From Nitrobacter sp. NHB1 (GTDB lineage Bacteria > Pseudomonadota > Alphaproteobacteria > Rhizobiales > Xanthobacteraceae): DNA of 64,000 nucleotides. Within the stretch, counting starts at the first letter, position 1. Each line of letters opens with the position of its first letter. Location of the stretch: assembly GCF_036964665.1 (NCBI RefSeq), contig NZ_JBAMDA010000001.1, positions 1,960,001-2,024,000 of the forward strand. The letters are read 5' to 3'. Under the pieces are notes generated by a model. The model was not told the DNA's origin and ran no database searches. It was given only the letters and a program-made list of their open reading frames with translations. This document shows positions 40,301 through 64,000 of the stretch, in pieces. The position numbers were made by a program, and so were the translations under genes.

Positions 40301-40311
40301 GGAGTGTCGAT

Positions 40312-41959: not shown

Positions 41960-41963
41960 AACA

Positions 41964-46505: not shown

Positions 46506-47765
46506 ATGCCTCAAAATCGCCCATCCACCATCGATGTCGCCATTGTCGGCGCCGGCGCTGCCGGGCTCGGCGCGGCCAATGCGCTGAAAGACTTCGGCCT
46601 CTCGATCATCGTGCTGGAAGCCCGCGACCGCGTCGGCGGGCGCGCTCACACCATTGTCCCCGCCCCCGGCATCATCTTCGATCTCGGCTGCGGCTGGCTG
46701 CATTCGGCCGACAGGAATTCATTCGTCGGAATCGCGGAGCAACTCGGCTTCGCCGTCGACAAGACGCGCCCCCCGTGGCGCGAGCAGAGCTTTGACGCCG
46801 GATTCCCGACGACGGAGCGCGAGGACTTCATGGCCGCGCTCGATGCATTCGACGAGCGAGCGGAAGAAGCCGCGGAGAGCGACACCGACAGCGCCGCCAG
46901 CCTGTATCTCGCGCCGGGCAACCGCTGGAATCCGATGATCGACGCCATCTCGACCTACGTGAACGGCTGCGAACTCGATGCCGTTTCCGTTCGTGACAGC
47001 AACGCCTACGAGGATACCGGGATCAACTGGCGCGTCCGCCGCGGCTACGGCGCGCTGATAGCAGCCTACGGCCGGCCTTGCCCGCTCGCGCTGAACACGC
47101 GGGTGTGGCGCATCGATCATTCCGGCCGGCGCATTCGCATCGAAACTTCGAAAGGCGCGCTTTCGGCTGCGCAGGTGATCGTCACGGTGCCGACCAATCT
47201 GATCGCGAACCAATCGATCCGCTTTCATCCCGAGTTACCCGCGAAAGTGGACGCGGCCGCGGGCCTGCCGCTCGGCATCGACGACAAGGTGATGCTGGCG
47301 CTCGACGATTCCGAGAGCGCGCTCCCCAACGACGGCAATCTCCGCGGCACGACCATGCGGACGAAAATGGGCACCTACCATTTGCGCCCGTTCGGCCAGT
47401 CCTGCATCGAGGGATTTTTCGGCGGCAGCTTCGCGCGCGAACTCGAAGATGCCGGCGACGGCGCGTTCGCGGCGCAGGCAATCGACGAGATCGTGGCGCT
47501 GCTCGGCTCGACTTATCGCAGCAAACTCAAAGCGCTGGCGGAATCACGCTGGGCCCGCGATCCCTTCGCGCTCGGCGCCTATTCCCACGCGCTGCCGGGC
47601 CATGCGGGAGCGCGCGCCACGCTCGCTGCGCCGGTCGACGGCCGGCTGTTTTTCGCGGGAGAGGCCACTTCACCGCATTTCTTCTCAACCGCGCACGGCG
47701 CGCGCGACAGCGGCGAGCGGGCGGCGCGAGAAGTGATGGATGCGGTGCGATTGCCGAAACGCTGA
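46506..47765 (+). CDS. Flavin-containing amine oxidoreductase
   Basis: A 419-residue FAD protein: Rossmann motif IVGAGAAGLGAANAL and LEARDRVGGRAHT at the N-terminus and FFAGEATSPHFFSTAHGA for FAD binding at the C-terminus. It belongs to the monoamine/polyamine oxidase family; the substrate cannot be told. There is no signal peptide. The ATG at 46506 fits the start of the Rossmann fold. Confidence 0.88.
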   Translation: MPQNRPSTIDVAIVGAGAAGLGAANALKDFGLSIIVLEARDRVGGRAHTIVPAPGIIFDLGCGWLHSADRNSFVGIAEQLGFAVDKTRPPWREQSFDAGFPTTEREDFMAALDAFDERAEEAAESDTDSAASLYLAPGNRWNPMIDAISTYVNGCELDAVSVRDSNAYEDTGINWRVRRGYGALIAAYGRPCPLALNTRVWRIDHSGRRIRIETSKGALSAAQVIVTVPTNLIANQSIRFHPELPAKVDAAAGLPLGIDDKVMLALDDSESALPNDGNLRGTTMRTKMGTYHLRPFGQSCIEGFFGGSFARELEDAGDGAFAAQAIDEIVALLGSTYRSKLKALAESRWARDPFALGAYSHALPGHAGARATLAAPVDGRLFFAGEATSPHFFSTAHGARDSGERAAREVMDAVRLPKR

Positions 47766-48039
47766 CGCGAAGCGTTGTCGTGGTGTGACTCGTCGCATCA
47801 TTCGCGCCGGTGACTTCCTCCGATACCATCGTGCCGTGCTGGGCCAATCGAGCCGAGCCGGTCTGCCGTTGCGGATGTCCCTGCTTCGGCCCGGTTCTGC
47901 ACCGGTCCGCGGCGCAGCGCCCCGCGGACTGTCCCTTTTCGATACAAAACGTCGCACCGGTGATGCCGACAATCAACATTTTAACCGATAATTAATGATG
48001 GACCTTGAAGACCGCGCGCCGACTTGCTTTGATTGCGGC

Positions 48040-48549
48040 ATGAGCACGACCCTGATCGAACTCCGGCCGGCCAAAGTCGCGGATGCATCCGCGGTCGCAG
48101 CGACCCATGACGAGGCCTGGCGTTCGGCCTATCAGGGCATCATTCCCGGCGCGGAACTGGAAAAGCTGATCAACCGGCGCGGCCCGCACTGGTGGGACAG
48201 CGCGATCCGCAAAGGCAGCCGCGTCAGCGTGCTGGTGTTCGGCGACAAGGTCGCCGGCTATGCCAATTATGGCCGCAACCGCGCCCGAAGCCTGCAGTAC
48301 GATGGCGAAATTTACGAGCTTTACCTGCGCCCCGAGTTCCAGGGCCTCGGCTTCGGCCGGCGGCTGTTCACCGCCGCCCGGCGCGATCTGACGCAGAGCG
48401 GACTGGAAAGCATGGTGACCTGGGCGCTGTCCGACAACGAGCCGGCGACGGAGTTCTACCGCGCGCTCGGCGGCCGCATGGTCGCCCGCTCCTCCGAGAA
48501 GTTCGGGCCGAAGTCGCTCGACAAGGTGGCGTTCGCCTGGACGAGTTAG
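48040..48549 (+). CDS. GNAT family N-acetyltransferase
   Basis: A 169-residue acetyltransferase: LRPAKVADASAVAATHDEAW at the start, acetyl-CoA-binding LYLRPEFQGLGFGRRLFTAA (Q/R-x-x-G-x-G/A type) near residue 105, and ALSDNEPATEFYRALGG after it. The substrate is unknown; relatives are found next to ppa in this family. The ATG at 48040 was chosen over 47995 because the domain begins right after it. Confidence 0.88.
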   Translation: MSTTLIELRPAKVADASAVAATHDEAWRSAYQGIIPGAELEKLINRRGPHWWDSAIRKGSRVSVLVFGDKVAGYANYGRNRARSLQYDGEIYELYLRPEFQGLGFGRRLFTAARRDLTQSGLESMVTWALSDNEPATEFYRALGGRMVARSSEKFGPKSLDKVAFAWTS

Positions 48550-48589
48550 AAGTCCGGTCCCCGGTCAATGTTTGGCCCCTCCGTCATCG

Positions 48590-48708
48590 CCGGGCATAGC
48601 CGTTCGAAGAACGGCGGCGCTTGCGCCCGCCTATGCCCGGCAATCTATCCTTTTCCGGAGACTCTTCTCGAAGATGGATAGATACGCGGGTCAAGCCCGC
48701 GTATGACA
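48590..48708. repeat. Composite palindromic repeat
   Basis: TCATCGCCGGGCATAG and CTATGCCCGGCAAT form one large stem; a second half contains ATACGCGGGTCAAGCCCGCG. It is related to the elements at 37750 and 5159. It lies between the GNAT gene and ppa. Confidence 0.7.
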
Positions 48709-48749
48709 TGTGTTGACTGACACGACGCTCTTCAATCACGGGGCCACCC

Positions 48750-49286
48750 ATGCGTATCGACGCGATATCGATCGGACCCAATCCGCCGTTTGAGGTGAAT
48801 GTCATCATCGAGGTGCCCGTCGGCGGCGAGCCGATCAAGTACGAGATGGACAAGGACGCCGGCACGCTGGTGGTCGACCGGTTTCTCTACACGGCGATGC
48901 GCTATCCCGGTAACTACGGCTTCATCCCGCACACGCTGTCGCAAGACGGCGACCCCTGCGACGTCCTGGTCGCCAACACCCGCGCCATCGTGCCCGGCGC
49001 CGTGATGAGCGTGCGGCCGGTCGGCGTGCTGCTAATGGAGGACGAGGCCGGCGGCGACGAGAAGATCATCGCGGTCCCGACCTCGAAACTGACCCAGCGC
49101 TATGACAAGATAAAAAATCACAACGACCTGCCGGACATCACACTGCAGCAGATTCAGCACTTCTTCGAACACTACAAGGATCTCGAACCCGGCAAATGGG
49201 TCAAGGTGCTGCGCTGGGGCGGCGCGGAGGACGCCCACAGGCTGATTCTGGAGGGCATCGCGCGGGCCGGGGCGACAACAAAATAA
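48750..49286 (+). CDS. ppa: Inorganic pyrophosphatase
   Basis: A 178-residue family I pyrophosphatase: [19 protein letters not shown] at the start (Lys and Glu ligands), [10 protein letters not shown], the Asp cluster DGDPCDVLV, and [17 protein letters not shown]. It hydrolyses PPi and drives biosynthesis. The length is normal. Confidence 0.98.
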
Positions 49287-49296
49287 GATTCCACCT

Positions 49297-49380
49297 CGTC
49301 ATTGCGAGCAAAGCGAAGCAATCCAGTTTTAGGTTGCGATGAACTGGATTGCTTCGTCGCAAGTGGTTCTCGCAATGACG
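49297..49380. repeat. Long hairpin repeat, family R2 copy B
   Basis: CGTCATTGCGAGC and TCTCGCAATGACG are the outer arms; GCGAAGCAATCCAGTTTT and AACTGGATTGCTTCG are the inner ones. It occupies the gap between the convergent ppa and folD, where it may end both transcripts. Confidence 0.85.
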
Positions 49381-49418
49381 CAACTGAAAACGCGCCGCTC
49401 GCTATTTGCTGGTTTCTC

Positions 49419-50303
49419 CTACACCTCCGGCGCCGGCAACCCCTTGATCGCGCAGGCGGCGCGCAGCGTGTTGACCAACAGGCACGCCACCGTCATCTGA
49501 CCGACGCCGCCGGGCACCGGCGTCACCGCGCCCGCGATCTCCATGGCCTCGTCGAACGCAACATCGCCGATCAGCCGCGTCTTGCCGTCGGCGGCCGGCG
49601 CCCGCGTGATGCCGACATCGATCACGGTCGCGCCCGGCTTGATCCAGTCGCCGCGCACCATCTCCGCTTTGCCGACCGCCGCATAGACCAGATCGGCACG
49701 CCGACAAAGTTCGGGCAGGTTGCGCGACCGCGAATGGGCGATGGTCACCGTGGCATTTTCATTGAGCAGCAACTGCACCAGCGGCCTTCCCACCAGATTG
49801 GAGCGGCCGATCACGATGGCGTCCATGCCTTCGAGCGAGGAATGCACGGTCTTGGTCAGGATGATGCAGCCGAGCGGCGTGCATGGCGACAATGCGGGCA
49901 GGCCGCCGGCGAGGCGGCCGGCGTTCTGCGGATGCAGCCCATCGACATCCTTCGCCGGATCGATGGCAGCAATGATCGTCTCGGTATCGAGCCCCTTGGG
50001 CAGCGGCAGTTGAACCAGAATGCCGTGCACGGCGGGATCGGCGTTCAGTCTGGCGACCAGCGCCAGCAAATCCGGCTGCGCTACATCGGCCGGCAGGACG
50101 TGTTCGAACGAGGCCATGCCGGCAGCCTGGGTCTGCTTGTGCTTGCTTCGGACATAGACTTCGCTGGCGGGATCGCTGCCGACCAGCACCACGGCGAGGC
50201 CCGGCGTGAGCCCGTGATCGCGCTTCACCCGCGCCACCTCAAAGGCCACCCGCGCGCGCAAATCAGCGGCGATGACTTTTCCATCGATGATGCTGGCCGT
50301 CAT
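49419..50303 (-). CDS. folD: Bifunctional methylenetetrahydrofolate dehydrogenase/cyclohydrolase
   Basis: A 294-residue Fol[21 protein letters not shown] near residue 55 (catalytic Lys region), [22 protein letters not shown], the NADP-binding [21 protein letters not shown] and [15 protein letters not shown] at the end. It interconverts one-carbon folates. Confidence 0.97.
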
Positions 50304-50321
50304 GCTGATCCTCAGTTCGGA

Positions 50322-50642
50322 TTATCCCGGTTGAGCCGCGGTCAACGCGCGCAGGGCATTGCCGAGCTTGACGGGATCGCCGCCGACCGCGACCTGCTTG
50401 AGCCGCGACGTCGCTCCCGTAACTATCCGGACATCGATTTTCCGCACGCCGAGCGCCTTCGCCAGCACCGCCATGACAGCGCGATTGGCTTCGCCGCCTT
50501 CGGCGATGGCGCGGACCCGAACCTTCACCACCGGGCGTCCGTCGGCCAGCATTTCAATGCCGTCGATCCCGTCGCGGCCGCCGCGCGGCGTCACCCGCAG
50601 GGCGATGCTGAGGCCCTGCGGAGAATACCTCCACGGCTCCAT
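50322..50642 (-). CDS. DUF167 (YggU) family protein
   Basis: A 106-residue protein with the family pattern LRVTPRGGRDGIDGIE, VKVRVRAIAEGGEANRAVMA and the KxxV/I-T-GxxSRxK motif (VRIVTGATSRLKQV). Function unknown. It begins 11 bp after the yggT-like gene, and the two often occur together. Confidence 0.92.
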   Translation of the reverse strand: MEPWRYSPQGLSIALRVTPRGGRDGIDGIEMLADGRPVVKVRVRAIAEGGEANRAVMAVLAKALGVRKIDVRIVTGATSRLKQVAVGGDPVKLGNALRALTAAQPG

Positions 50643-50653
50643 CGGGCCGCCGA

Positions 50654-50944
50654 TCAGAACACGGCGGGATAGATGTAATAGGTGATGACCCGCTGCATGA
50701 ACAGGATGATCAGAATCAGAATGATCGGGGAAATGTCGAGCCCACCGAGATTCGGCAGTAACCGACGGATCGGTGCCAGCAGGGGTTCGGTGATCCGTTC
50801 CAGAAACTCAGCCACCGCAGCCACGAACTGATTGCGGGTATTCACCACATTGAAGGCAATCAGCCATGACAGGATCGCCGAGGCAATCAGCAGCCAGACA
50901 TAGAGGTCGAGGATGATGAGGACGATATCCAGTATGGCTCGCAT
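50654..50944 (-). CDS. YggT family membrane protein
   Basis: A 96-residue protein with two hydrophobic segments (about 4-30 and 70-90) and the YggT signature ITEPLLAPIRRLLPNLGGLD followed by SPIILILIILFMQ. It is an inner-membrane protein linked to cell shape or osmotic stress in other bacteria. First gene of yggT-yggU-(folD). Confidence 0.93.
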   Translation of the reverse strand: MRAILDIVLIILDLYVWLLIASAILSWLIAFNVVNTRNQFVAAVAEFLERITEPLLAPIRRLLPNLGGLDISPIILILIILFMQRVITYYIYPAVF

Positions 50945-51042
50945 GGGGGATTGGCTCGCGGGTTTGGTCGTGGATTCGACGAGTGGAGCAAGAAGGCTCG
51001 CTGAGACGGAAAGTGAACGTTAGAATCGAACCGCTAGCGTGG

Positions 51043-51177
51043 CGGTTCAGAAGTTCTCTTCACCTTTGCCAAGTCCGTCAAGAGAGCTTCTGAACCGAAA
51101 ACGAGGCGTATTGGGCTCTCGTCCCCTGGAATTCGAAGTTCGCCCTTGGGTGGGCAGCGATGGCTGCGAACTTCGAA
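51043..51177. other. Structured intergenic region with two strong inverted repeats
   Basis: IR1: arms at 51043-51060 and 51080-51097 (18 bp, one mismatch; CGGTTCAGAAG / CTTCTGAACCG). IR2: perfect 12-bp arms TTCGAAGTTCGC (51132-51143) and GCGAACTTCGAA (51166-51177). AACCGAAAACGA (from 51093) is also partly complementary to TCGTTTCGGTT near 51203-51213. There is no coding signal on either strand. It may be an RNA or a repeat; the rest of the yggT-tRNA-Ala gap shows nothing else. Confidence 0.55.
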
Positions 51178-51344
51178 CTCAGGAATACGAGCCTGCAAAC
51201 TATCGTTTCGGTTCCCGCCAAACAAGGGAAGTCCGGGAAATAAGGCTCAAAATGCCGATTCCGGCCGTTCTTGACTTGCCGTCGGCGAGGACTGTAAATG
51301 GCGGCGTTTCCGGTCCGCCGCATCTTTCGCCGCCGACCGTGGAC

Positions 51345-51420
<76 letters not shown>

Positions 51421-51850
51421 GCGGTATCCTTCGAGGCAACCGTCATCCTGGTGTCGGCTGCCGTCGATTGCGACGCGCTCGCTTTTGAGCCCTTGAACTG
51501 CTCGATCTTCGAAGTGAAGCTCGACAACAATCCTGCCACGTCCCGTGTAGATCGAATTCGTCGTGGGGCATTCTATGGCCGCGTTTCCTCGGCGATCCGC
51601 GTTACCGCAAACCCGACGTTTGCAAGGCGTCGCGGCATAGTGGAATGCTGCATCGCAGGGTACCGTTAACCATGTCACCCAAGTGCAACACCGCGACTGA
51701 ATCGGAACGCGCCGGCTGGTCGAGAGCGGCGCGGGATGTCAGATCCGACGGCAGGTAACACAATATTAGCCATAGGTAAAATAATATCAGTTGCGCGATT
51801 CGGTCACGGCTTTGCTGGCGGCCTCCAGCATGCCGCCGGAGGAACGGGGC
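51421..51850. other. Intergenic region before the autotransporter gene
   Basis: No gene-like frame. The last 90 bases are AT-rich (ATATTAGCCATAGGTAAAAT near 51762-51781), unlike the surroundings, and probably hold the autotransporter promoter. Confidence 0.45.
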
Positions 51851-54424
51851 ATGGGCAGGCTGTCAATGGACAAGTCGGGCTTGGTGGCATGGCTCGCTTT
51901 GGCGTTGACGTGGGCAGCGCCAGTGGAAGCGCAGGATGCGAGTTGGCTCGCCGCTCCGCCCAGCAGCAATTTTAACGACGCTGCGAACTGGACCCCGATC
52001 ACCGTGCCGACCGGCACCGCATCGTTCGGCACGTCGACCGGCACGAACATTACGTTCGCAAATGACACCACCCTGGGAGGGTGGACCTTCGACGCCGGCG
52101 CTTCGAATTATACCTTTACCAACAACCATGCTCTGATTTTCACGGGAGCCGGTATCGTCGTCAACGACGGCAGCGCCAGCATCACTAACATCGGTTTCCT
52201 GCAATTCTTCCACAGCAGCACGGCCGGCAGCGCCAACATCACGAATAACAGCGTCATGGAGTTCTTCGACACCAGCACGGCCGGCAACGCCAGCATCATC
52301 AATAAGGGCAGCGCGTACTTCTACAACGGCAGCACGGCCGGCAGCGCCAGCATTACCAGCAACGTTTTCTTGCGATTCTCTCACTACAGCACAGCCGACG
52401 GAGCCAGCATCACGAATAACAATCTCCTGCAGTTCACTGACTCCAGCACAGCCGGCGACGCCAGCATCACCAACAACAAGTTCCTGCAGTTCGCCGCCAG
52501 CAGCACGGCCGGCAACGCCAGCATCACCAATGGGGCTGCCGGCGCGCTGACCGACTTCTCGGAGTCGAGCGGACCGGTCAACAACGGGCAGCTCTCCGCC
52601 GGCTCGATCGCCGGCAGCGGGCAATTCTATCTCGGCGCCAATCAACTCACGGTCGGCGGCAACAATCTGAGCACCATCGTCAGCGGCGTCATCAGCGACT
52701 GCGGGCCGACCGGCCATGATTGTGGTAAGCCTGCCACCGGCAGCTCGCTGGTCAAGACCGGAACGGGGACGCTGACGCTCGCCGGCGCCAACCTCTATAC
52801 CGGAGCCACCACGGTCGATGCCGGCACGCTCGACGTCACCGGCTCGCTGGCGGCGTCAAGTCCGATCAGCGTCAACACGGGGGCGGTGCTTGCAGGCACC
52901 GGCAGCGTCGGCAGCGTCGGCATCAACAGCGGCGGCACGCTGGCGCCGGGCGACGGCACGCCGGGCTCCTTGATGAGTCTCGGCAGACTGGCACTGCACG
53001 CGGGCGCAATGTATGTGGTGATGCTCAACCCCGCCACCGCGTCATCCGCCAATGTCACGGGTGCAGCGACGCTCAGTGACGCCACCGTCAACGCGGTCTA
53101 TGCCAACGGCAGTTATATCTCGAAGCAATATACCATCCTCACGGCAGGCAACGTCAGCGGCACGTTCGGCTCGCTGGCCAACACCAACCTGCCCGCGAAC
53201 TTCACGACCAGCCTGAGTTACGACCCGACCCATGCCTATCTCAACCTGACGCTGAACTTTATTCCGCAGCCGGCGAGGGCCTTTACCAGCCCCAACCAGC
53301 GCAATGTCGCCAATGCGCTGACCAATTCCTTCAACACCGCCGGCGGCATTCCGCTGGTGTTCGGTACGCTGACGCCAGCAGGCCTGACGCAGGTCTCTGG
53401 TGAAGTGGCGACCGGCTCGCAGCAGGCAACCTTCAATGCAATGAACCTGTTCCTGGGGATCTTGAGCGATCCCTTCGTCGCCGGCCGCGGCAATGGCGCA
53501 ACCGCAAACGGTGCGGCCCCGGCCTATGCCGCGATCTATCGCAAGGCGCCTGCAATGGCCTATCCCCTCAACCCGCGCTGGAGCGTGTGGGCCGCAGGCT
53601 ACGGCGGCTCGCAGAGCACCGGCGGCAATGCATCGCTCGGCTCCAGTACGACGACCTCAGGTGTCGCCGGCGTCGCGGTCGGCGCCGACTACCTCATCTC
53701 GCTGTCCACGACCGCCGGCTTCGCAATGGCGGGCGGCGGCACCAACTTCAATGTCGCCAACGGGCGGGGCAGCGGACACTCCGACCTGTTCCAGGCCGGC
53801 GCCTTCATTCGCCACAACACCGGCGCCGCCTATCTCTCCGGAGCGCTCGCTTACGGCTGGCAGGACATCACCACCAACCGCATCGTGACGATCGCCGGCT
53901 CCGACCGGTTGCAGGCGCGCTTCAGCGCCAACGCATGGTCGGGCCGTGTCGAAGGCGGCTATCGCGTGGTCAGCCCGGCGATGGGCGGCGTCGGGATCAC
54001 GCCTTATGCGGCTGGCCAGTTCACCACCTTCGATCTGCCGGCTTACGCCGAAAGCATTCTGTCCGGCGCCAACACGTTTGCGCAGGCCTATAACGCCAAG
54101 AGCGTGACGGATCCCCGCAGCGAACTCGGTGTCCGCACCGACAAATCCTACGCGGTGCAGGACGCGATCCTGACCCTGCGCGGACGTCTTGCATGGGCGC
54201 ACGATTTCAATCCGGATCGCACCGTCGCCGCGACATTCCAGACCTTGCCTGGCGCCAGCTTCGTCGTGAACGGCACAGCTATGGCCTCCGACGCAGCGCT
54301 CGTCACCGGCGCGGCCGAGATGAAATGGATCAACAACTGGTCAATGGCCGCCACCTTCGAGGGCGAGCTCTCCAACGTCACACAATCCTACGCCGGCAAG
54401 GGCATCGTCCGCTACGCGTGGTGA
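51851..54424 (+). CDS. Autotransporter with 19-residue passenger repeats
   Basis: An 857-residue type V secreted protein. The signal peptide (about 1-28, ending APVEAQ) is followed by a beta-helical passenger with six 19-residue repeats (about 110-223), an autotransporter-associated beta-strand repeat (LVKTGTGTLTLAGANLYTGA, about 300) and a C-terminal beta-barrel (about 574-857) ending in the outer-membrane signature Tyr-Ala-Trp. GGAGGA lies 7 nt before the chosen ATG. The passenger probably acts as surface adhesin; the target is unknown. Confidence 0.9.
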   Translation: MGRLSMDKSGLVAWLALALTWAAPVEAQDASWLAAPPSSNFNDAANWTPITVPTGTASFGTSTGTNITFANDTTLGGWTFDAGASNYTFTNNHALIFTGAGIVVNDGSASITNIGFLQFFHSSTAGSANITNNSVMEFFDTSTAGNASIINKGSAYFYNGSTAGSASITSNVFLRFSHYSTADGASITNNNLLQFTDSSTAGDASITNNKFLQFAASSTAGNASITNGAAGALTDFSESSGPVNNGQLSAGSIAGSGQFYLGANQLTVGGNNLSTIVSGVISDCGPTGHDCGKPATGSSLVKTGTGTLTLAGANLYTGATTVDAGTLDVTGSLAASSPISVNTGAVLAGTGSVGSVGINSGGTLAPGDGTPGSLMSLGRLALHAGAMYVVMLNPATASSANVTGAATLSDATVNAVYANGSYISKQYTILTAGNVSGTFGSLANTNLPANFTTSLSYDPTHAYLNLTLNFIPQPARAFTSPNQRNVANALTNSFNTAGGIPLVFGTLTPAGLTQVSGEVATGSQQATFNAMNLFLGILSDPFVAGRGNGATANGAAPAYAAIYRKAPAMAYPLNPRWSVWAAGYGGSQSTGGNASLGSSTTTSGVAGVAVGADYLISLSTTAGFAMAGGGTNFNVANGRGSGHSDLFQAGAFIRHNTGAAYLSGALAYGWQDITTNRIVTIAGSDRLQARFSANAWSGRVEGGYRVVSPAMGGVGITPYAAGQFTTFDLPAYAESILSGANTFAQAYNAKSVTDPRSELGVRTDKSYAVQDAILTLRGRLAWAHDFNPDRTVAATFQTLPGASFVVNGTAMASDAALVTGAAEMKWINNWSMAATFEGELSNVTQSYAGKGIVRYAW
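52178..52519 (+). repeat. 57-bp coding tandem repeat, six units
   Basis: Each unit encodes SITNN-x-x-LQF-x-x-(S)STAG-x-A, 19 residues; units 5 and 6 are the closest (SITNNNLLQFTDSSTAGDA and SITNNKFLQFAASSTAGNA). A seventh unit is cut short at SITNGAAG. Such arrays change length by slippage or recombination. Confidence 0.85.
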
Positions 54425-54442
54425 GGAGCCGCAGATCGAACG

Positions 54443-55225
54443 TCACGATCGCCTTCGCATCTGGAAGCCGGTGACCGCTCGCAGGATGACGTCGCGCGGA
54501 AACAGCCGAAGCAGAAACGGCACCAACTTGATCCCGAGGCCGGGAAGCACGGCCCTTCTGTTAGCCATCAGACCGCGGTAGCCGTCCCGAGCAATGTCCT
54601 TCGCGGACACGTTCAGGATCGCGGAGTCGAAACCGGGCTTCACGCCCGCCCGCGCCTGAAATTCCGTCGGTACCGGGCCGGGACAGATCACGGTGACACG
54701 GACGCCGCGGGGGCCGAGTTCGCCGCGCAGCGCCTCGCTGAACGACAGGACATAGGCCTTCGACGCATAATAGACGGCCATGCCGGGACCCGGCAGAAAT
54801 CCCGCGATCGACCCGACGTTGAGAATGCCGCCGCGCAACCGGATCAGGCTTTCGGAAAACCGCAGCGACAAATCCGTCAGCGCCCGGACGTTGAGGTCGA
54901 TCATCGCGAGTTGATCGGCGCGATCCAGTTCAGCGGCACTGCCGAACAGCCCATAGCCGGCATTGTTCACGAGATATTCGACGTCGGCGCTCTCGGCAGC
55001 GAGCGCCGCCGCAATCCTGTCGCCGGCATCGGTGCGGCCGAGGTCACACGGAATCACGATCGGGGGCGCGCCGCCCGCTGCGCCGATTTCGGCCGCCAGC
55101 GCTTCGAGGCGATCGGCCCGCCGGGCGACCAGAGCCACCCGATGCTCATGGGCGGAAAACACCCGCGCCAGTTCGGCGCCGATCCCGGAGGAAGCGCCTG
55201 TTATCAACGTCACCGGATGGGTCAC
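54443..55225 (-). CDS. Short-chain dehydrogenase/reductase
   Basis: A 260-residue SDR: nucleotide-binding TGASSGIGAELA, LVNNAGYGLFG, catalytic Ser in NVGSIAGF and Tyr-x-x-x-Lys in VYYASKAYVLSF. The substrate is unknown; the long C-terminal part with FLLRLFPRD resembles lipid- or steroid-type SDRs. It is convergent with the autotransporter, 18 bp apart. Confidence 0.9.
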   Translation of the reverse strand: MTHPVTLITGASSGIGAELARVFSAHEHRVALVARRADRLEALAAEIGAAGGAPPIVIPCDLGRTDAGDRIAAALAAESADVEYLVNNAGYGLFGSAAELDRADQLAMIDLNVRALTDLSLRFSESLIRLRGGILNVGSIAGFLPGPGMAVYYASKAYVLSFSEALRGELGPRGVRVTVICPGPVPTEFQARAGVKPGFDSAILNVSAKDIARDGYRGLMANRRAVLPGLGIKLVPFLLRLFPRDVILRAVTGFQMRRRS

Positions 55226-56182: not shown

Positions 56183-56288
56183 CGACGCTCCATCAAGTCG
56201 GGTTGAAATCTGGCTGCACCCTGTCAATCGACCGGCGCTTGCCGGCACCAAAATATCGCACGCGTCCTGGGCCGGACGATGAAGGGAC

Positions 56289-56333
56289 TGGCGCCGCATG
56301 CGTGGCTCGAACACGCGGCCCCATTATTACGAA
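56289..56333 (-). repeat. tRNA-Thr 3'-half fragment (candidate attachment-site copy)
   Basis: This 45-nt stretch matches the 3' part of the intact tRNA-Thr(CGT) at 59382-59426 in 36 of 45 positions with no gap, from the CCA end through the T-arm to the anticodon loop (CGT), where similarity stops abruptly. Its T-stem (GCGTG TTCGAGC CACGC) is perfectly paired although it differs from the intact one (AGGTG TTCGAGT CACCT), so it derives from a once-functional tRNA-Thr. Confidence 0.75.
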
Positions 56334-56527
56334 ACACATAGCATAGGCAAACAAAGGCTCACAAGGCGTCACGCAATTGCTCTCCCGGCGCGGGCCTTCG
56401 CTTCATCACCGGACATACGGCGGGCGAAAGTCGCGTAAATCGCGTCGTACGATCCCGCGCTCTGCCCGGTCAACGCGACAGTTCATTTCATGAATTTAAG
56501 CAATCCGAGCATCGCGCGACGCCAGTT

Positions 56528-56632
56528 TTAGTCGCGCCTACTGGTCTGATAGCTCCCCCAAGCCAAGCTCAGGGTTAAAGCCAAAAAGACCGCGATCAGA
56601 CCTCCGAGAATGAGAATGGAATCAACCGACAT
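56528..56632 (-). CDS. 34-residue single-span membrane protein
   Basis: A short gene reading MSVDSILILGGLIAVFLALT, then LSLAWGSYQTSRRD. It has one hydrophobic helix (about 5-26) and a basic C-terminus, and GGGAG about 9 nt before the ATG. Similar tiny membrane proteins occur in related genomes. It may be a small regulatory membrane peptide; no function can be assigned. Confidence 0.6.
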   Translation of the reverse strand: MSVDSILILGGLIAVFLALTLSLAWGSYQTSRRD

Positions 56633-57027
56633 GATTAGGGTCTCCCAGGGCCGCCCCCTGCGAATACGTACTCGGATGTTTTAGCTCACGCCAATCACGG
56701 CTTCGGGACTCGAGCAACCGGACGTTGCCGCGTCCGGCCGCCTGGAGCCGGGCGACGCCAAGGGCGGCCCTTCAGCGCCCACCACCTCGGCAAGCGGCAT
56801 TGATGCTGGCCTCGATCCGAGCATGCTATACTGAGCGCTCTTACCGGTTGCGGCGCCGCTCGCTAATGGGATGAAGACAATGGGATGAAGACCAGTCACT
56901 CGGACTCGATCTTGCCGATCGTCGGCTCGACCTGGGGTCGACGGCGGCTTCGATTTCCTGGAAGTGCAATGCTACGCGACCGGCCGTCAAACCCCTGGCC
57001 AGCGCACAGCGCCAATGGAGCGACACG
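56633..57027. other. Intergenic stretch of the islet
   Basis: No convincing gene on either strand. TGGGATGAAGAC is present twice in tandem (near 56867 and 56881), a small duplication. Codon patterns in the longer frames do not look protein-like. Confidence 0.4.
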
Positions 57028-57216
57028 ATGAACGACTTGGAAGGATTGCTTGGTCGGGCAGTGTTTCGGCTCTGGCCGGACCTACCGCGAGATATGCAGG
57101 AACGAATCTTCGAGGCCGCATCAAGCGACCTCGACACCCGGCGTCGCCTGGCTGTGGTGCTCCATGAGCAACACCCCAGGACAGCGTTCCCGCCGCGGTC
57201 CGGCGCCCTCGCTTAG
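57028..57216 (+). CDS. Small conserved hypothetical protein
   Basis: A 62-residue protein: MNDLEGLLGRAVFRLWPDLP, then DMQERIFEAAS and the tail VLHEQHPRTAFPPR. It is probably all-helical and cytoplasmic. Similar short proteins occur in Nitrobacteraceae, often in accessory regions. Function unknown. Confidence 0.62.
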   Translation: MNDLEGLLGRAVFRLWPDLPRDMQERIFEAASSDLDTRRRLAVVLHEQHPRTAFPPRSGALA

Positions 57217-57292
57217 GCCCGCGCGACACTGCGATTTTGAATCTGCGCGTGGCCATGTGTCCGCGCTAACACCGCCGAGCGGAGGCCCACAG

Positions 57293-57529
57293 ATGCCGGA
57301 CCTAGACCCTCTCGAATCCGTCGCGGCGTCCGGGCTGGTTTCCGCGTCGCTGATTGCAGCGTTAATACCGGCGCTGGTCAATACCGGCGTCCTATCGCCG
57401 CGAGGTGCGCGTGAAATTTATGAAAATGCCCTGCTCATGATCGAAACGCAGCAGGGCGATGATCCCGCCGTGGAACGCATCTACGAAGCTGCACGGGAAT
57501 TGATCGAGGCTCATCTGAGGCCCGAATAG
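57293..57529 (+). CDS. Small conserved hypothetical protein
   Basis: A 78-residue helical protein starting MPDLDPLESVAASGLVSASL and ending EAARELIEAHLRPE, with a hydrophobic first half (LIAALIPALVNTGVL) and an amphipathic second half. It lies 76 bp after the 62-residue gene on the same strand and may be co-transcribed. Function unknown. Confidence 0.62.
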   Translation: MPDLDPLESVAASGLVSASLIAALIPALVNTGVLSPRGAREIYENALLMIETQQGDDPAVERIYEAARELIEAHLRPE

Positions 57530-57584
57530 GAGGGCCAGACCGGAGATTGGCGTCAATCTCTCGCCACCGCGCTCTTCGGCCGCT

Positions 57585-57815
57585 TCATCGTGAATTCGAC
57601 CCTGCCCGTGGCCGCCTGGTCAACTTATAGGACCACCATGCAGTCGCCTGGTTCCAGCTTTTAATGAGCAGGTTGCAGACGTCACACTCTGCATGGCCTG
57701 TGTCCTTGAATGGGCTGGTAAAGACCGTCACTTTGTAGACGGCCCCGCAACCGGGACAGGTATATTCACCGCCATCGCGGGCTCGCACACCAGGTTTGGG
57801 ACGCTTCGGGGCCAT
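57585..57815 (-). CDS. Small zinc-ribbon-like protein
   Basis: A 76-residue protein with two Cys pairs, CPGC (about 20-23) and CDVC (about 44-47), in the order of a zinc ribbon, and a basic start (MAPKRPKPGVRARDGGEYT). It may bind nucleic acid or another protein. Relatives occur in Nitrobacteraceae; no function is known to me. It is convergent with the 78-residue gene. Confidence 0.7.
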   Translation of the reverse strand: MAPKRPKPGVRARDGGEYTCPGCGAVYKVTVFTSPFKDTGHAECDVCNLLIKSWNQATAWWSYKLTRRPRAGSNSR

Positions 57816-58224
57816 AAGAGGCGAGTAGCGCCCTTTGGTCCATCCCGCAAGTCGTTTCGTTCGCTGCCTTATTCAAAACGACCCACTGCTCGTTTTTATA
57901 CTTCGCTTGCTCGCGGTCTACTGGTGCATCGAGGATGGCATTGGGCGCCGCGTCGGCGGTGGTCAATGGATCGTCAGCAAGGTCGCCCTGGCGACGTTTC
58001 TGGATGGCGATGACGTGGCGCTAGCTAGTCGCGTATAAAAAGGAAGACCGATCCGGCGACCGCGTAATCGTCTACTTCAGAAGAGAAGGACTGGAACGCC
58101 TGCTAGAGAAATGGCGGGATCCTTGCCCAATCTGATGATCTCGGCAATGATCGCCCTTGGGCCAAACAGGCTCGGCAACACCCTTTGGCGGGAGGTGTAA
58201 AGCTCCGCCTGCACCTTCTCGCTG

Positions 58225-58258
58225 AATTGGTACACCCCTTTGGGGTGCAACCAATTTT
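58225..58258 (+). terminator. Hairpin with short T-tract (terminator or attenuator)
   Basis: AATTGGT-a-CACCCC, loop TTT, GGGGTG-ca-ACCAATT, followed by TTT. It sits about 20 bp before the start of the 90-residue membrane protein gene. As a + strand signal it could end an upstream transcript or attenuate that gene. Confidence 0.55.
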
Positions 58259-58278
58259 GGATTCACGTCGGAGGATCG

Positions 58279-58551
58279 ATGCTCTTTGTTATCGTCGTGG
58301 CTTTGGTGGCGGCCTACTTGATATCGCGGCTGGTTGGGCTGGCTGCCAAGAGGTGGCCGAACACAATCGGCAAGGCCGTGTTCGTCAATGCCGTGAGCGC
58401 TATAATTGTCGTGGTCGCGGGAGCGTTAGCCTCCGCAGCAGACGGTAGCCCGCCAAAATTCTATTTAGCGTTCTTGATATACGGCGGCGCACAATTGATC
58501 GTGCTGACTTTTGATGCGATCCGGCTAGTCAGGTCAACCGAACCACGTTAG
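58279..58551 (+). CDS. Small membrane protein, islet gene
   Basis: A 90-residue protein with three hydrophobic segments (about 1-20, 33-52 and 60-80). GGAGG lies 4 nt before the ATG. I recognise no family. The tail is short and charged (RLVRSTEPR). Its base composition is less GC-rich than that of the flanking core genes. Confidence 0.6.
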   Translation: MLFVIVVALVAAYLISRLVGLAAKRWPNTIGKAVFVNAVSAIIVVVAGALASAADGSPPKFYLAFLIYGGAQLIVLTFDAIRLVRSTEPR

Positions 58552-58714
58552 CGATATCCGCCCCACCCCACCCCTCTCAGGACATGGAGCCTCCGGCGAA
58601 TCCGGGCGCTCCCGCTGACCATCGCGATGACAAGCGTCTTGTGGGGGCCGCTAGGCAGCGAAGACCCTCGAAAATCTCGAGGAAATCGCGAATCTGCTGG
58701 GGCAGTCCTGAAAC

Positions 58715-58749
58715 AACAAAAGACCCGACCGCCGATTAAAGCGGCCGGG
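58715..58749 (-). terminator. Rho-independent terminator
   Basis: On the minus strand CCCGGCCGC, an 8-nt loop and GCGGTCGGG (one mismatched pair) are followed by TCTTTTGTTG. It lies downstream of the AbiJ-like remnant on the same strand and probably was its terminator. Confidence 0.68.
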
Positions 58750-58913
58750 CTAAGTCAGAGGAGGAAACAGGCCCAGGGCGGGCCTCAACATCGCCGGGCT
58801 GGTCTCCTGGCCGGCGATTCGTGACAGCCCCGTGCAGGGCCGACCAGCATCCGTTTAACATCGCTTTTAGATGCATGATTTGATCTACATCAATAGGCAC
58901 GTCTCTCCGTTGG

Positions 58914-59360
58914 TCAGCTTGCTGCTGCCTTGTTTTCAAGAACTCCCTTAGGGGTTCCTCTTGGACAGGTATGTGCAGATCGCGCAGGATACCTGCACAA
59001 GCAATTCTGCGTCTTCCGGCGCTGGTCTGCTTTGCTCGCTGACATGTCGCCCGTGTTGCGAGGCGAATCCATATAGCTGCTTACCGCTTCATCTAGCGGC
59101 TTCGGCAAGTCATAGACTTTGTATCAGACGCACTGGCGAATGTCGTAGAGCACCTCGTCGCGAATATTCGGGACTTCGCTCCAGTTATTTGGGGCTGGAG
59201 CGGTTAGCAGCACTCGGCAAACGACAGATCGAATCTGGCCATAACTTGGACCGCAATCGTATGCATTCTGAATTACGGCAAAGCGCAATCCGTCGGGCGC
59301 ATCTGTTCTTACTGTGATTGGCGGTGCAGAAGCGAAACTGTTATGCTTGGAAAAGGTCAT
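58914..59360 (-). pseudogene. Remnant of an AbiJ-like abortive-infection gene
   Basis: The first 78 codons read MTFSKHNSFASAPPITVRTD, then APDGLRFAVIQNAYDCG, SVVCRVLLTAPAPNNWSE and NIRDEVLYDIRQCV, resembling the N-terminal domain of AbiJ-type defence proteins. A TGA (59124-59126) then stands where the family has Trp, and the same frame continues with YKVYDLPKPLDEAV before similarity fades. The C-terminal effector domain is absent. So this is a nonsense-interrupted and truncated defence gene, next to the tRNA-Thr. The family call is from memory of the motif and needs a search. Confidence 0.58.
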
Positions 59361-59381
59361 CCCTGCACCGTGGAAGTGAGG

Positions 59382-59457
59382 TGGTGCCGCTTAGGTGACT
59401 CGAACACCTGACCCCATCATTACGAATGATGTGCTCTACCAACTGAGCTAAAGCGGC
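59382..59457 (-). tRNA. tRNA-Thr (anticodon CGT)
   Basis: The minus strand folds as a cloverleaf: acceptor GCCGCTT with AAGCGGC, D-arm GCTC...GAGC, anticodon stem CATCA/TGATG with loop TTCGTAA (CGT reads ACG), T-arm AGGTG TTCGAGT CACCT, and encoded CCA at 59382-59384. Its 3' side faces the islet. Confidence 0.95.
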
Positions 59458-59601: not shown

Positions 59602-61257
59602 TCAGCTTCCCCGGCGCGACAGCAACCCGCGCAACCCACCGGCCTGGCGCGCGACCTGGGAGGTTTCTTCAGCAAATCCATCATCTTGGGGGCTGTCATC
59701 CACGCCCGGATCGTCGGGAGCGCGAACGATCGCGATCACGGCAGGGATGTCGGATGCGGCCTCGGCCTTGTTCGGGTCCGATTGCGTGCGAAAGGTCGGC
59801 GATGTCGCGGCCTCGGCCGACGCGGCGACAGTTTCGGACGATGACGATTCGACCGCAACCGTTGCACCGTCCTGAGCGGCGGACTGGGATGCTGCGGGCA
59901 GCGCTTCGAAACGCGGCGCATCGCCCGCGATCTGGTCCGAAAACTCCGCCTCGACCAAGGCGGGCCTGCTCGAAGGCAGCGCCGCCAGCGGGGCCTGCCA
60001 CTGAAACGCGTCAAGCCGGCCGGTCACCGGCGAAACCGGACGCCAGTGGTCCGACACGTAGCCATCCGCGGTCCAGACCGGATCGTGCAGGGCACGCACG
60101 GCACGCAGCGTCCAGGCGCGGGCGCGGCCGCTGTCGCCGTGCTCGTTGTGCTCGATTTCGGCCATCAGCATCGCAACGCGTTGCGTCGGCGCTGCGATCA
60201 GCGGCTCCAGCACCTCGCGCGCCCGGGCGAATTCGCTGGCATCGATCGCCGCGCGCGCAATCGCCATCACGCTTTCCGGATGACCGGACGCATTTTCCGC
60301 CAGCGTCTCGACACGCGCCAGCCGCTCCCGCGCCGAATCGCCGGGCATGACATGAGCGTAGGCGTCGGCGAGATCAGGATGCGGCTGTGCCAGCCACGCG
60401 GTCTCGATGATCCGCATCGCACGCCGCATCTGATTCGCTTCGCTCAGATACTTGCTCGCAAGCACCACGGCCGGAATCAGCGTCGGTGCGTACTTCACCG
60501 CCTCCATCACCGTATTGCGCGACGCATCGCGATCCGACTTTTCAAGCTCCAGCGCCCGCGCGGTCAACAGCACGCCGCGCTGACGGCGGTACAGCGCCTT
60601 GTCGATCAGACCCGACGCGACGTTTTTCTCGAGGATGGCGAGTGCGCCGGTCCAGTCGCCCCTGGCGCAGCGAAAGCCCAGCGCGGCTTGCGAGGCCCAT
60701 ATCGAGGACGGCGATACCTTCAGCGCTTCCTCGGCGATCGCCACCGCAGCCTGCGGATCGTCGGCCCGCTGGGCTTCGATGAAAAGCCCGCGCAAGCCCA
60801 ATAACCGCGTATCCGCTCGCTCTGCCATGGCGCGGAACGCACGCTGCGCGCGGTCCGCATCGCCGTCGAGCTGCGCGGACTGCGCGTGCAATAGCAGCGC
60901 CAACGGCTCGTGCGACACCAGACGCCGGGCAACCTTGGCATGCGTCCGTGCGGCCGCGGCGTCGCCGTGACCGATCGCAAGCAGGCCACGGGTAATCGCG
61001 TCCCGGCCGCGCCTGCTCCGACGCTCCCGGCGCGCACGCCGGATGCGTCTCGGTGCTTGCCACAGACCCCGCACGATGCTCCACACCAGCAGGGTGGCAA
61101 CGACAAGCAGGCCCAACCCAAGTGCGAAAGCCGGTAGCGTGGTCTCGATTCGCCAGACATCCCACGACATCACGATCGTGCCGGTCTGATCGGCAACCCA
61201 GGTGGCGCCCAATGCCGCGAGCGCGATTAGAACGAGGAACAGGATGATGCGAAACAT
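59602..61257 (-). CDS. hemY: HemY-type tetratricopeptide membrane protein
   Basis: A 551-residue protein: two N-terminal membrane helices (about 4-22 and 43-63), a basic stretch, then a TPR-rich domain (about 95-400) and a long low-complexity, acidic tail. In alphaproteobacteria this gene follows hemC-hemD-mic60. Despite the name it is not protoporphyrinogen oxidase; it is thought to organise haem-pathway enzymes or membranes. It starts 8 nt after mic60. Confidence 0.9.
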   Translation of the reverse strand: MFRIILFLVLIALAALGATWVADQTGTIVMSWDVWRIETTLPAFALGLGLLVVATLLVWSIVRGLWQAPRRIRRARRERRSRRGRDAITRGLLAIGHGDAAAARTHAKVARRLVSHEPLALLLHAQSAQLDGDADRAQRAFRAMAERADTRLLGLRGLFIEAQRADDPQAAVAIAEEALKVSPSSIWASQAALGFRCARGDWTGALAILEKNVASGLIDKALYRRQRGVLLTARALELEKSDRDASRNTVMEAVKYAPTLIPAVVLASKYLSEANQMRRAMRIIETAWLAQPHPDLADAYAHVMPGDSARERLARVETLAENASGHPESVMAIARAAIDASEFARAREVLEPLIAAPTQRVAMLMAEIEHNEHGDSGRARAWTLRAVRALHDPVWTADGYVSDHWRPVSPVTGRLDAFQWQAPLAALPSSRPALVEAEFSDQIAGDAPRFEALPAASQSAAQDGATVAVESSSSETVAASAEAATSPTFRTQSDPNKAEAASDIPAVIAIVRAPDDPGVDDSPQDDGFAEETSQVARQAGGLRGLLSRRGS

Positions 61258-61264
61258 CTGAAAC

Positions 61265-62530
61265 CTATGGCGCTGGTTTGGTCAGCGCCGCCATCGCGTC
61301 GGCTGCGAACTGACGCGACGCGGCAAGAGCGGCATCGTATGCGTCGGCCTTGGCGATCCAGGGCTCGGCGGCAGTGCGATCGGCTGGAGGAAGCGCGTTC
61401 AATTCCGCCTTCGCGGCAGCAACATCGTTTTGCTTTGCCGATGCCGTGATGCGCGCAACCACGGCGCCGGTGGAATCCGCGGGTGAAGCATCGATGCGTT
61501 CGATACGCACCAGACGCGCGGCGCCCTCCTGCAACCGGTCCACGAGGCTGCTGCCGGTCGTCGCCAGGACCGGTGCCGGTGCCGGCGCGAGCTTTGGCAC
61601 GATCGCAAGCAGTTCGTGAGACAGCACGGTCGCGCTCGGCACGCCCGAGTCCGCGAACGTCTCCAGCGGCTTCAACGCGTCGGGGTCGGCAACCAGGGCC
61701 TTCGATGCCGCCAGCAGATCGCCATAAGGCTGCCCGTGGCGCACCGACACGTTCAGCAGCGTCGCCGCCACGGCCCGGCGAAGCGGCACGTCGTCGGCCG
61801 GAGCAGCGCCATGCTTGGTTGCCTCGGCGGTCAGGGTTTGCGTCGTCTGCTCGACCTGGTGCTCGACTTGGGCGAGCCGCGCGCTGATGGCCGCAAGGTC
61901 AGACGCCTGCTCGGCGCCATGCGGCACGGATGCTCCGTCCTTCAAGGCCGCAGCCAACTTGTCGGATTGACCGCGAACGGTTGCCAGTTCGCCGCGCAAG
62001 GATGCAACGGATTTTTCCAGAGCACCGATACGCGCCGCGGCGGCCGGATCGGGCGCCGGAGCAGCCGGCTTGCTGGCCCTCGACTCGACACTGGCTACCC
62101 GATTCGAAAGAGCGCCAAATTCCGCCGCACTGACTTGCGCTTGCGGCGCAGCAGAGGGTGCGGAGGATAACGGCGGCCAGCCCGTCAGCCACGTGCCGCC
62201 AACAACGAGCCCGGCGGCGACCGCACCGGCGACCGCGGCGATCACGGCCGACAAAGCGCGGGACGGTGCGCGCGGAGGAGCCGGCTGCTCGCCGATGGGC
62301 TGTCGATCGTCAGCCGCTCCGTCCGCATCCCCTGAACCGGCATCATCCGCCGTCCCGGAAATTCGGTTGGCTTCGAGGTCTGCGGGAGACGAGAGGTCCT
62401 GCCAGCCCGCGTCCCCGGGACCGGCATGATCCGCTGACGCGGAAGCTCCAGTCGTTTCAATGTCCGTGGGAAGCGAATGCTTTTGCGAGCTCCCCTCCTG
62501 CGACACGTCATCGTGCCTGTCGTCTGCCAT
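61265..62530 (-). CDS. Alphaproteobacterial Mic60 (mitofilin) homologue
   Basis: A 421-residue protein: acidic low-complexity N-terminus (about 1-90), one membrane helix (about 95-115), a coiled coil (about 140-230) and a C-terminal mitofilin-type domain (RRAVAATLLNVSVRHGQPYG, then LETFADSGVPSATVL). Mic60 shapes mitochondrial cristae; the bacterial form helps to form intracytoplasmic membranes. Its place between hemD and hemY is the known alphaproteobacterial arrangement. The ATG at 62530 was chosen over 62557. Confidence 0.85.
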   Translation of the reverse strand: MADDRHDDVSQEGSSQKHSLPTDIETTGASASADHAGPGDAGWQDLSSPADLEANRISGTADDAGSGDADGAADDRQPIGEQPAPPRAPSRALSAVIAAVAGAVAAGLVVGGTWLTGWPPLSSAPSAAPQAQVSAAEFGALSNRVASVESRASKPAAPAPDPAAAARIGALEKSVASLRGELATVRGQSDKLAAALKDGASVPHGAEQASDLAAISARLAQVEHQVEQTTQTLTAEATKHGAAPADDVPLRRAVAATLLNVSVRHGQPYGDLLAASKALVADPDALKPLETFADSGVPSATVLSHELLAIVPKLAPAPAPVLATTGSSLVDRLQEGAARLVRIERIDASPADSTGAVVARITASAKQNDVAAAKAELNALPPADRTAAEPWIAKADAYDAALAASRQFAADAMAALTKPAP

Positions 62531-62587
62531 CGTCACGGTTCCCCATTGCGGCGACACATCAGTATCAGATCGAGACCCATCTCCCTA

Positions 62588-62658
62588 TTACCGCGATAAC
62601 GGCCGTAACGCACTAGTTACCGCGATAGCGGCTTACCGCGATAGCGGCCGCAACGCAC
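62588..62658. repeat. Micro-duplication of the hemD 3' end
   Basis: TTACCGCGATARCGGC occurs three times, at 62588-62603, 62617-62632 and 62633-62648; the first and third copies extend to 26 bp with GCAACGCAC-like ends. The third copy contains the hemD stop codon (62633-62635), so the end of the gene has been duplicated in tandem. Confidence 0.85.
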
Positions 62659-63379
62659 AATCCAGCGCCTCCAATACCGCATTTTCGGCCGGCGCGCGCG
62701 CCATTACCACATGGGGAGCGCCGGCGTCTCGCAGAATCGAGGCCACGGTGCCGGAGATGCAACATTGCGGGACCGCCAAAGCCGATATCTCGACGCCCCC
62801 GGTGCGGACGGCGTCCAGGAACGCCCGGGCGCTGCGTCGCGAATAGTGCAGCACCGCCGATATCCGGTGCGCGGCAAACGCATCACAGACCTCGCGCGAC
62901 AGGATCGCCACCGGCGCCATCCGGTAACACGTCGCCGTCACGACAGCCAAACCGCGCGCTCCGAGCTCTCCGGCGAGATCGCATGAGCGATCGGCCGCTG
63001 CGAGATAAAGAATCCTCGCCCCCTTCGCCAGGGGTTTCGCGCGAGCACTCTTTATAATGAGTTCGCGCAATGCCACCGCATCTCCGCCTGCCGCGACCAC
63101 ATCCTGAAATCCGGCCTGGCGCGCGGCCTCCGCGGTGTGCCGGCCCACCGCGAACACCGCCAGCTTCAGCAGCGACTCTCGAGCCGGATGGGCGGCGAGC
63201 GCGCGCAACGCGTTGCCGCTGGTCACGACGACGGCGCCATAGCGCGCATCCGGATCGATTTCGAAAGCGACCGCCTCGAAGCGCAACACCGGCGACAACA
63301 GAACCTCAAGCCCCCTCGCCCGCAGGACGGCGGCGGTGGCTTCATTGTCCGGTTCAGGTCGCGTGACGAGAACCGCCAC
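62633..63379 (-). CDS. hemD: Uroporphyrinogen-III synthase
   Basis: A 248-residue protein of normal HemD length: VLVTRPEPDNEATAAVLRAR at the start, VVVTSGNALRALA, FAVGRHTAEAARQAGF and VLHYSRRSARAFLDAV are family landmarks, and the conserved Tyr is in ATCYRMAP. It closes hydroxymethylbilane to uroporphyrinogen III. It starts 3 nt after the hemC stop. Confidence 0.93.
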   Translation of the reverse strand: MAVLVTRPEPDNEATAAVLRARGLEVLLSPVLRFEAVAFEIDPDARYGAVVVTSGNALRALAAHPARESLLKLAVFAVGRHTAEAARQAGFQDVVAAGGDAVALRELIIKSARAKPLAKGARILYLAAADRSCDLAGELGARGLAVVTATCYRMAPVAILSREVCDAFAAHRISAVLHYSRRSARAFLDAVRTGGVEISALAVPQCCISGTVASILRDAGAPHVVMARAPAENAVLEALDCALRPLSR

Positions 63380-63382
63380 GCC

Positions 63383-64000
63383 TCAGGCTCCGGCGAACAG
63401 CGTGAAGAATTTCTCGCCTGCGCGCTCGCGCAATTCATGCGCCGCGTCCGCACCAAGCGCGGCGGCATCCGCGCGCGCGCCTTCGCGCGTGGTCTCGTAG
63501 GACTGCGTGCCGTCGGGAGAAATAATGAGGCCGCGGAAATGAATGCGGTCGCCGTTGACGCGACAATGGCCGCCGATCGGCGTGCGGCAGGAGCCGTCGA
63601 GCAGCGCCAGAAAGCTTCGCTCGGCGCTCAAAGCCACTTCCGTATCAGAATCGCCGATCGCCTTTACGAACGCGTTGATGCGGTCGTCGTCACGCCGCGA
63701 TTCGATCGCGATGGCGCCCTGCCCGACCGCCGGCAGGAATTCGTCGGTCTCGAGAATGCGCGTCGCCCTGTCCTGCAAGCCGAGGCGGTTCAGGCCGGCC
63801 AGCGCCAGCAGCGTGGCGTCGGCCTCCCCCGCTACGAGCTTGCGCAGGCGCGTCTCGACATTGCCACGGATGACGCTCACTTTCAGATCCGGGCGCAGCC
63901 GCAGCACCATGGCCTGCCGCCGCAGCGACGCGGTCCCGACGATCGAGCCCGCCGGTAGATCGTTCAATGACGCGGCGCGCGGACTGATGAAGACGTCGCG
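63383..64000 (-). CDS. hemC: Porphobilinogen deaminase, C-terminal part (runs off the right edge)
   Basis: About 205 residues of HemC are visible: RDVFISP at the edge, GTASLRRQAMVLRLRPDL, then VSVIRGNVETRLRKL, LAGLNRLGL, LPAVGQGAIAIE and the dipyrromethane cofactor Cys in LLDGSCRTPIGGH. It polymerises four porphobilinogens. It is the first visible gene of the hemCD-mic60-hemY operon; its start lies right of the window. Confidence 0.97.
   Translation of the reverse strand, partial: RDVFISPRAASLNDLPAGSIVGTASLRRQAMVLRLRPDLKVSVIRGNVETRLRKLVAGEADATLLALAGLNRLGLQDRATRILETDEFLPAVGQGAIAIESRRDDDRINAFVKAIGDSDTEVALSAERSFLALLDGSCRTPIGGHCRVNGDRIHFRGLIISPDGTQSYETTREGARADAAALGADAAHELRERAGEKFFTLFAGA

Follow-up and report, generated by a model that had tools for sequence, protein, structure and literature searches.

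The probable remnant of an integrative element at a Nitrobacter tRNA-Thr(CGT) gene and the apparent displacement of its original 3' half

Why does a bacterial genome hold, 3 kb from a complete tRNA-Thr(CGT) gene, a second copy of that gene's 3' half, and which of the two halves is the original? The question is raised by a stretch of 64,000 nucleotides (hereafter the window) from the nitrite-oxidising bacterium Nitrobacter sp. NHB1, representing C1:1960001-2024000 of a 3.79 Mb genome in 4 contigs (labelled G000). The complete tRNA gene (59382-59457, minus strand) and the displaced 3' half (56289-56333, minus strand) enclose an islet of 3,048 bp (56334-59381). We conclude, with a probability of roughly 0.92, that this islet is a decayed remnant of an integrative element of the tyrosine-integrase type that targeted the tRNA gene. 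From the sequence comparisons below, the fragment is best read as the displaced original 3' half, and the T-arm of the working tRNA is probably the newcomer.

The first-pass annotation of the window had described an ungapped match of 36/45 in the same orientation, running from CCA to the anticodon loop, and our recount agrees with it: the fragment lies on the same strand as the 3' 45 nt of the resident gene (59382-59426), and spans tRNA positions 32-76, from the base that opens the 7-nt anticodon loop, a known crossover subsite, through to CCA. Its second-best place in the window reaches 30/45, within a tRNA-Ala gene (51345-51420), and the maxima in six mononucleotide-shuffled windows were 24-27/45. 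Since the observed match stands so clearly above the best of the six shuffles, it lies far beyond chance, and a chance match was rejected. A pattern search allowing up to 3 mismatches located the fragment at one place in the whole genome; a dispersed repeat, which the annotation had named as an origin that would speak against integration, was rejected as well. The islet is therefore bounded by a complete tRNA gene and a cognate 3' fragment, which is in the correct orientation and on the correct side, the arrangement by which tRNA-targeted genomic islands are recognised.

Events of this type are well known. Partial tRNA genes left by integrating elements have been described as widespread (PMC9897764), and the Islander report assigns 2083 of 3919 islands to an anticodon-centred site (PMC4383910, Table 1). 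Like the islands described there, the Nitrobacter islet combines a tRNA gene, a same-orientation cognate 3' fragment downstream, a length above 2 kb and an anticodon-centred site; unlike them, it lacks an integrase and carries two 3' halves with different T-stems, and Islander would reject it because of its integrase filter. Likewise, partial and complete tRNA copies occupy opposite ends of the insert, as in PMC9897764, where the repeats of the worked example are 44 bp long, differ by 1 bp and enclose ~21.4 kb; in the window 9 of the 45 positions differ and 3 kb are left. A Sinorhizobium hot-spot study lists elements in tRNA-Thr(GGU), a different isoacceptor (PMC11476347). No account of this locus or of T-stem shuffling was found in the literature searched, most subscription papers lying outside it. 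The locus is thus a decayed but unusually readable case of a well-known type of event, the exchange of T-stems being its only unusual feature.

Is there evidence that the site was once empty? The tRNA neighbourhood was compared in seven relatives, namely the core relatives Nitrobacter sp. 62-13 (G001), N. winogradskyi NBRC 14297 (G002), N. vulgaris Ab1 (G003), G004, which we take to be N. winogradskyi Nb-255, Nitrobacter sp. Nb-311A (G005) and sp. 62-23 (G006), together with a Hyphomicrobiales metagenome-assembled genome (G008). G007, which lacked both a tRNA match over the full length and any match to terB, was left out; terB is present in 8 of the 9 genus genomes searched, the window's own counted. 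The first-pass annotation had proposed comparing the hemY-terB interval for empty sites or larger islands, and both were found: three of the seven relatives (G002, G004 and G005) have an empty site, and N. vulgaris holds a larger element at the same tRNA. In the three empty sites the DNA that follows the CCA is colinear with the DNA after the window's fragment, and the 16 positions continuous with it (56273-56288, minus strand) align with their post-CCA flank, marking them as the original downstream flank.

This flank also bears on an alternative in which part of the tRNA gene was duplicated locally, without any integration. The missing integrase suits a duplication. Against it, the fragment adjoins the original downstream flank, in relatives this site holds elements or inserts, and a copy of the present tRNA would show the present AGG T-stem, from which the fragment differs at all four diagnostic positions; we regard a duplication as having next to no likelihood. 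Integration, followed by decay, accounts for the locus far better.

The T-stem indicates which half came first. The resident 3' half has an AGG/CCT T-stem, and the fully paired T-stem of the fragment departs from it at positions 49, 50, 64 and 65, the other five mismatches falling at positions 40, 47, 60, 67 and 73. Five of the six core relatives (G001, G003, G004, G005 and G006) have the GCG form (GCGTG/CACGC); N. winogradskyi NBRC 14297 has AGG like the window, and G008 carries a different tRNA form. Compared with the GCG form of those five, the fragment scores 40/45 and agrees at all four diagnostic positions. Because its T-stem is the form of most core relatives, the fragment is read as the displaced original. 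The annotation had left it open whether the fragment came from another lineage or was older than the present tRNA; the latter fits, as the fragment has kept the majority Nitrobacter T-stem.

A foreign T-arm can, judging from the gene's structure, still yield a working tRNA, since both strands of the T-stem belong to the 3' half and pair with each other, and the anticodon stem and loop are the same in the three T-stem alleles encountered in this study (AGG, GCG and ACG). Within the genus, the 76-nt tRNAs of G002 (AGG) and G004 (GCG) differ at the four T-stem positions only, and the two strains are sisters in both hemY and terB trees (support 100/100 and 99/98), which were midpoint-rooted and leave the place of the window strain among the other groups as an open fork. 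AGG has thus had either multiple origins within the genus or several losses.

The relatives also provide further cases at the same tRNA. In N. vulgaris Ab1 the site is occupied by a prophage-like element whose ends lie on separate contigs, their connection being deduced from synteny: the tRNA, of the GCG form, is on C11, and the displaced half, of the AGG form, is on C17 (L039:8149-8196) and undecayed; a tyrosine-integrase ORF (open reading frame) starts ~115 bp away from it. This integrase matches PF00589 at E 1.9e-21 and also Arm-DNA-bind_3; the far side of the element adjoins cys-terB-sdr, and the contig on the tRNA side carries phage-type genes (tail lysozyme, HNH). The exchange of T-stems therefore runs opposite to that in the window, with GCG resident and AGG displaced. 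The element (L036, L039) shares with the islet the tRNA, the break region and a related helix-turn-helix (HTH) gene; unlike the islet it has kept its integrase and phage-type genes and shows the reverse exchange.

A decayed site was found in G001, where 907 bp separate the tRNA from a fragment matching 28/45 without gaps. G006, likewise a decayed site, has 3.1 kb between cys and the tRNA, in which no tRNA fragment was recognised. Over 492 nt its DNA is 81% identical to that of the insert in G001, and it may be the same insert after loss of the fragment. G008 has ~6.3 kb of other DNA at the site. The insert DNA common to G001 and G006 (L034:9399-10305, L035:3176-6256) found no counterpart in the window's islet by blastn, and the site has therefore probably been hit at least three times within the genus. 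The annotation had held that close relatives with the same small genes and no tRNA fragment would count against integration. Relatives of some islet genes do exist in other Nitrobacter, but at other loci, and an insert without a recognisable fragment does stand here in G006, but its content differs and is akin to that of the G001 insert.

What, then, remains of the element? The GC content of the islet is 0.584, versus 0.642 (40001-55000) and 0.674 (59602-64000) in the window. Three features are of the kind expected from a mobile element. An open ORF of 78 aa (57293-57529, plus strand) belongs to phage family phrog_37345, which has no known function (E 1.4e-19, 78/78 positions); it has relatives in 6 of 198 family genomes, the window's own counted. 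The remnant of an HTH gene (57920-58099, plus strand), frameshifted and missing its N-terminal part, is kin to the gene at L039:623-907 in the N. vulgaris element, with 75.9% DNA identity over 170 nt, alignment in two frames (88% over 34 aa, 68% over 22 aa) and a like orientation relative to the tRNA. That open relative matches HTH_17 at E 2e-5 and 25.2 bits, slightly below the cut-off of 27, and an excisionase PHROG weakly (E 0.0044). Finally, the remnant of an AbiJ_NTD4 gene (58957-59360, minus strand) keeps its N- and C-terminal parts and lacks ~120 middle residues: the G003 protein aligns at 59342-59076 (residues 12-102) and at 59079-58966 (residues 225-262). The remnant's own Pfam match is weak (E 0.0039, under the cut-off), and we read it as AbiJ because of the Pfam matches of full-length relatives in G001 and G003 (E 2e-22 and 1e-16 to AbiJ_NTD4). 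These remnants suggest that the original element was prophage-like, perhaps with a defence gene.

Several observations weigh against this account. The genome has 25 PF00589 matches, all of them outside the islet, and the best islet tblastn match of three related integrases reaches E 0.14, which is no clear remnant; the annotation had likewise found no integrase. An integrase remnant in the islet was rejected, both searches being without a significant match there, and because no integrase gene lies inside we file the locus as a decayed remnant and not as an intact island. PADLOC returned nothing for the AbiJ fragment and only a weak BrxB match (E 0.046) for the 78-aa ORF; no match came from phage records searched with the latter by tblastn, or from plasmid records searched with the islet by blastn. 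At the blastn level the overlap with the known parts of the G003 element is only ~170 nt, and the original element therefore need not be its close kin. Two further ORFs (57585-57815 and 58240-58551) have homologues at other loci of the genus, and part of the islet may therefore be a separate arrival. With respect to phage structural or replication genes, one phage-family ORF of unknown function and one HTH remnant were all that the searches recognised.

The annotation had allowed for a satellite as well as a decayed element. A small satellite, still mobile by means of an integrase encoded elsewhere, could draw on the other PF00589 proteins of the genome, on the two attachment (att) repeats, which are still recognisable, and on the three open ORFs of 76-103 aa. 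The far repeat, though, is decayed (5 changes relative to the GCG form), the HTH and AbiJ genes are broken, and no satellite regulator, packaging or capsid-remodelling gene was named among the Pfam and PHROGs matches of the islet ORFs submitted, a weak negative because most PHROGs have no known function. We found no support for a satellite and consider it highly improbable. The decayed-element part of the annotation's claim, by contrast, gains from the empty sites, the integrase-bearing element of G003, the decayed fragment of G001 and the remnant genes, and the islet is probably unable to move by itself.

The course of events may be pictured as follows. The crossover between a tyrosine-integrase element and tRNA-Thr(CGT) would have taken place in the anticodon loop, as the start of the repeat suggests, and the att site of the element, bearing a tRNA 3' half of the AGG form, would have completed the host gene while the host's own 3' half was displaced to the far end of the insert. 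Integrase and most other genes would then have been lost through deletion and frameshift, the integrase presumably by deletion, and the displaced half, free of function, would have gathered ~5 substitutions, with the earlier host T-stem still readable.

Alternatively, integration was real but the element also brought a GCG half, and paired point mutations later turned the GCG of the resident gene into AGG. GCG being the majority form in the genus speaks for this; the change would, however, take four substitutions at two pairs, one of them from C-G to G-C, and in N. vulgaris the combination is the opposite one, the displaced half being AGG and undecayed. We searched 397 genomes of the order with a pattern of the 3' half that left six T-stem positions free. 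It gave 58 exact matches in 55 genomes, with T-stems of the GCG, ACG or AGG form and one GGG, all Watson-Crick paired (31 checked by script, the remainder by eye); none is an unpaired intermediate, a further point against later mutation. Two or more genomes matched in 14 genera, and six of these, namely g34, g44, g81, g107, g108 and g131, are mixed for T-stem form. In g108 all seven tRNAs proved to be complete genes, three with AGG and four with GCG; G513 (g131) had counted via its displaced half, and g131 is mixed even without it. On viral contigs there were 25 matches, 13 of them without a tRNA 5' half (AGG 5, GCG 4, ACG 4), and the GCG, ACG and AGG forms recur patchily across both the order and these contigs.

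Three genomes of other families are instructive. The arrangement of the N. vulgaris element recurs in G615, with two identical 45-nt copies 17.8 kb apart and an integrase beside the displaced one, and in G468, from a second such family. G513 offers a direct view of the break point: its host tRNA is represented by an orphan 5' half that stops shortly after the anticodon loop; a complete tRNA-Thr(CGT) with an AGG T-stem follows ~90 nt past the end of the 48-nt 5'-half match (both in C8:113960-114172, L245), with a different acceptor stem (GCCGCAT/ATGCGGC), and 14.6 kb further on lies the displaced 3' half with an ACG T-stem and AAGCGGC (C8:128748-128792, L238). This layout suggests an element that split the host gene in the anticodon loop and came with a whole replacement tRNA.

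Ten insert-bounded pairs could be compared (G000, G001, G003, G350, G362, G468, G513, G615 and two viral contigs). T-stem forms differ between the ends in three of them (G000, G003 and G513), the G003 and G468 pairs being on separate contigs and the exact-pattern search favouring undecayed, like copies. In the other seven the two ends are identical or alike in form, which argues against general swapping of T-arms and suits later mutation; GCG-ACG differences can also be explained by paired point mutation. Taking the G513 pair (displaced ACG, resident AGG) as a further point against it, later mutation of the resident gene appears unlikely here, and we prefer the view that the element supplied the AGG half.

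Whether such donation is general is another matter. We propose tentatively, as a real possibility still short of probable, that integrating elements serve as vectors by which the T-arm of a working host tRNA is exchanged, so that three T-stem alleles circulate through the order on att sites, the 5' half descending vertically and the 3' half horizontally. A whole replacement tRNA would be brought where acceptor strands misfit, as in G513, and loss of an element by crossover beyond the T-stem would fix the donor allele in a seemingly empty site, as in G002. The likelihood of this proposal is somewhat raised because G513 adds a third exchange.

Several observations stand beside these subjects. 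The acceptor strands of the resident tRNA (GCCGCTT/AAGCGGC) occur in 8 of 47 named tRNA-Thr loci, 5 being Nitrobacter, and GCCGCAA/TTGCGGC in 38; the gene is 76/76 identical to the tRNA of G051, a genome of another family, and the whole resident tRNA, beyond its 3' half, may have had an unusual history. In G350, also of another family, a second decayed 3' fragment lies ~3.9 kb from tRNA-Thr(CGT) (G350:C45:70770-74783), possibly a similar islet. In a DNA search 32 of 248 family genomes, the window's counted, match some part of the Nitrobacter islet, and with two candidates scored per genome the matches above 200 nt are confined to the genus. The 78-aa ORF has an 81% paralogue elsewhere in the same genome (L193, G000:C1:3167000-3186900), amid ORFs that look transposase- or recombinase-like by eye. 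The open 76-aa ORF (57585-57815, minus strand) is weakly zinc-ribbon-like, under Pfam cut-offs, and the sole copy found in its genome; homologues stand at other loci in six relatives, in G002-G005 near a putative orotidine-phosphate decarboxylase gene. The window's genome keeps such a decarboxylase-like gene (L228, G000:C1:1185772-1186515), and the 76-aa ORF was not found within ~1.5 kb of it. The open 103-aa ORF (58240-58551, plus strand) is membrane-protein-like by eye and has homologues elsewhere in G001, G003, G005 and G006. The full-length AbiJ-type gene of G001 adjoins one with the N-terminal domain of ArdC, an anti-restriction protein (L196:7030-8955).

This one small locus thus presents a housekeeping tRNA whose tail probably came from a mobile element, with the displaced original half readable as a fossil of the earlier tRNA gene. 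Searches that require an integrase, such as Islander, would miss it. If the shuffling of alleles is general, past integration at tRNA-Thr(CGT) would be traceable by T-stem form alone, whether the element is gone or not.

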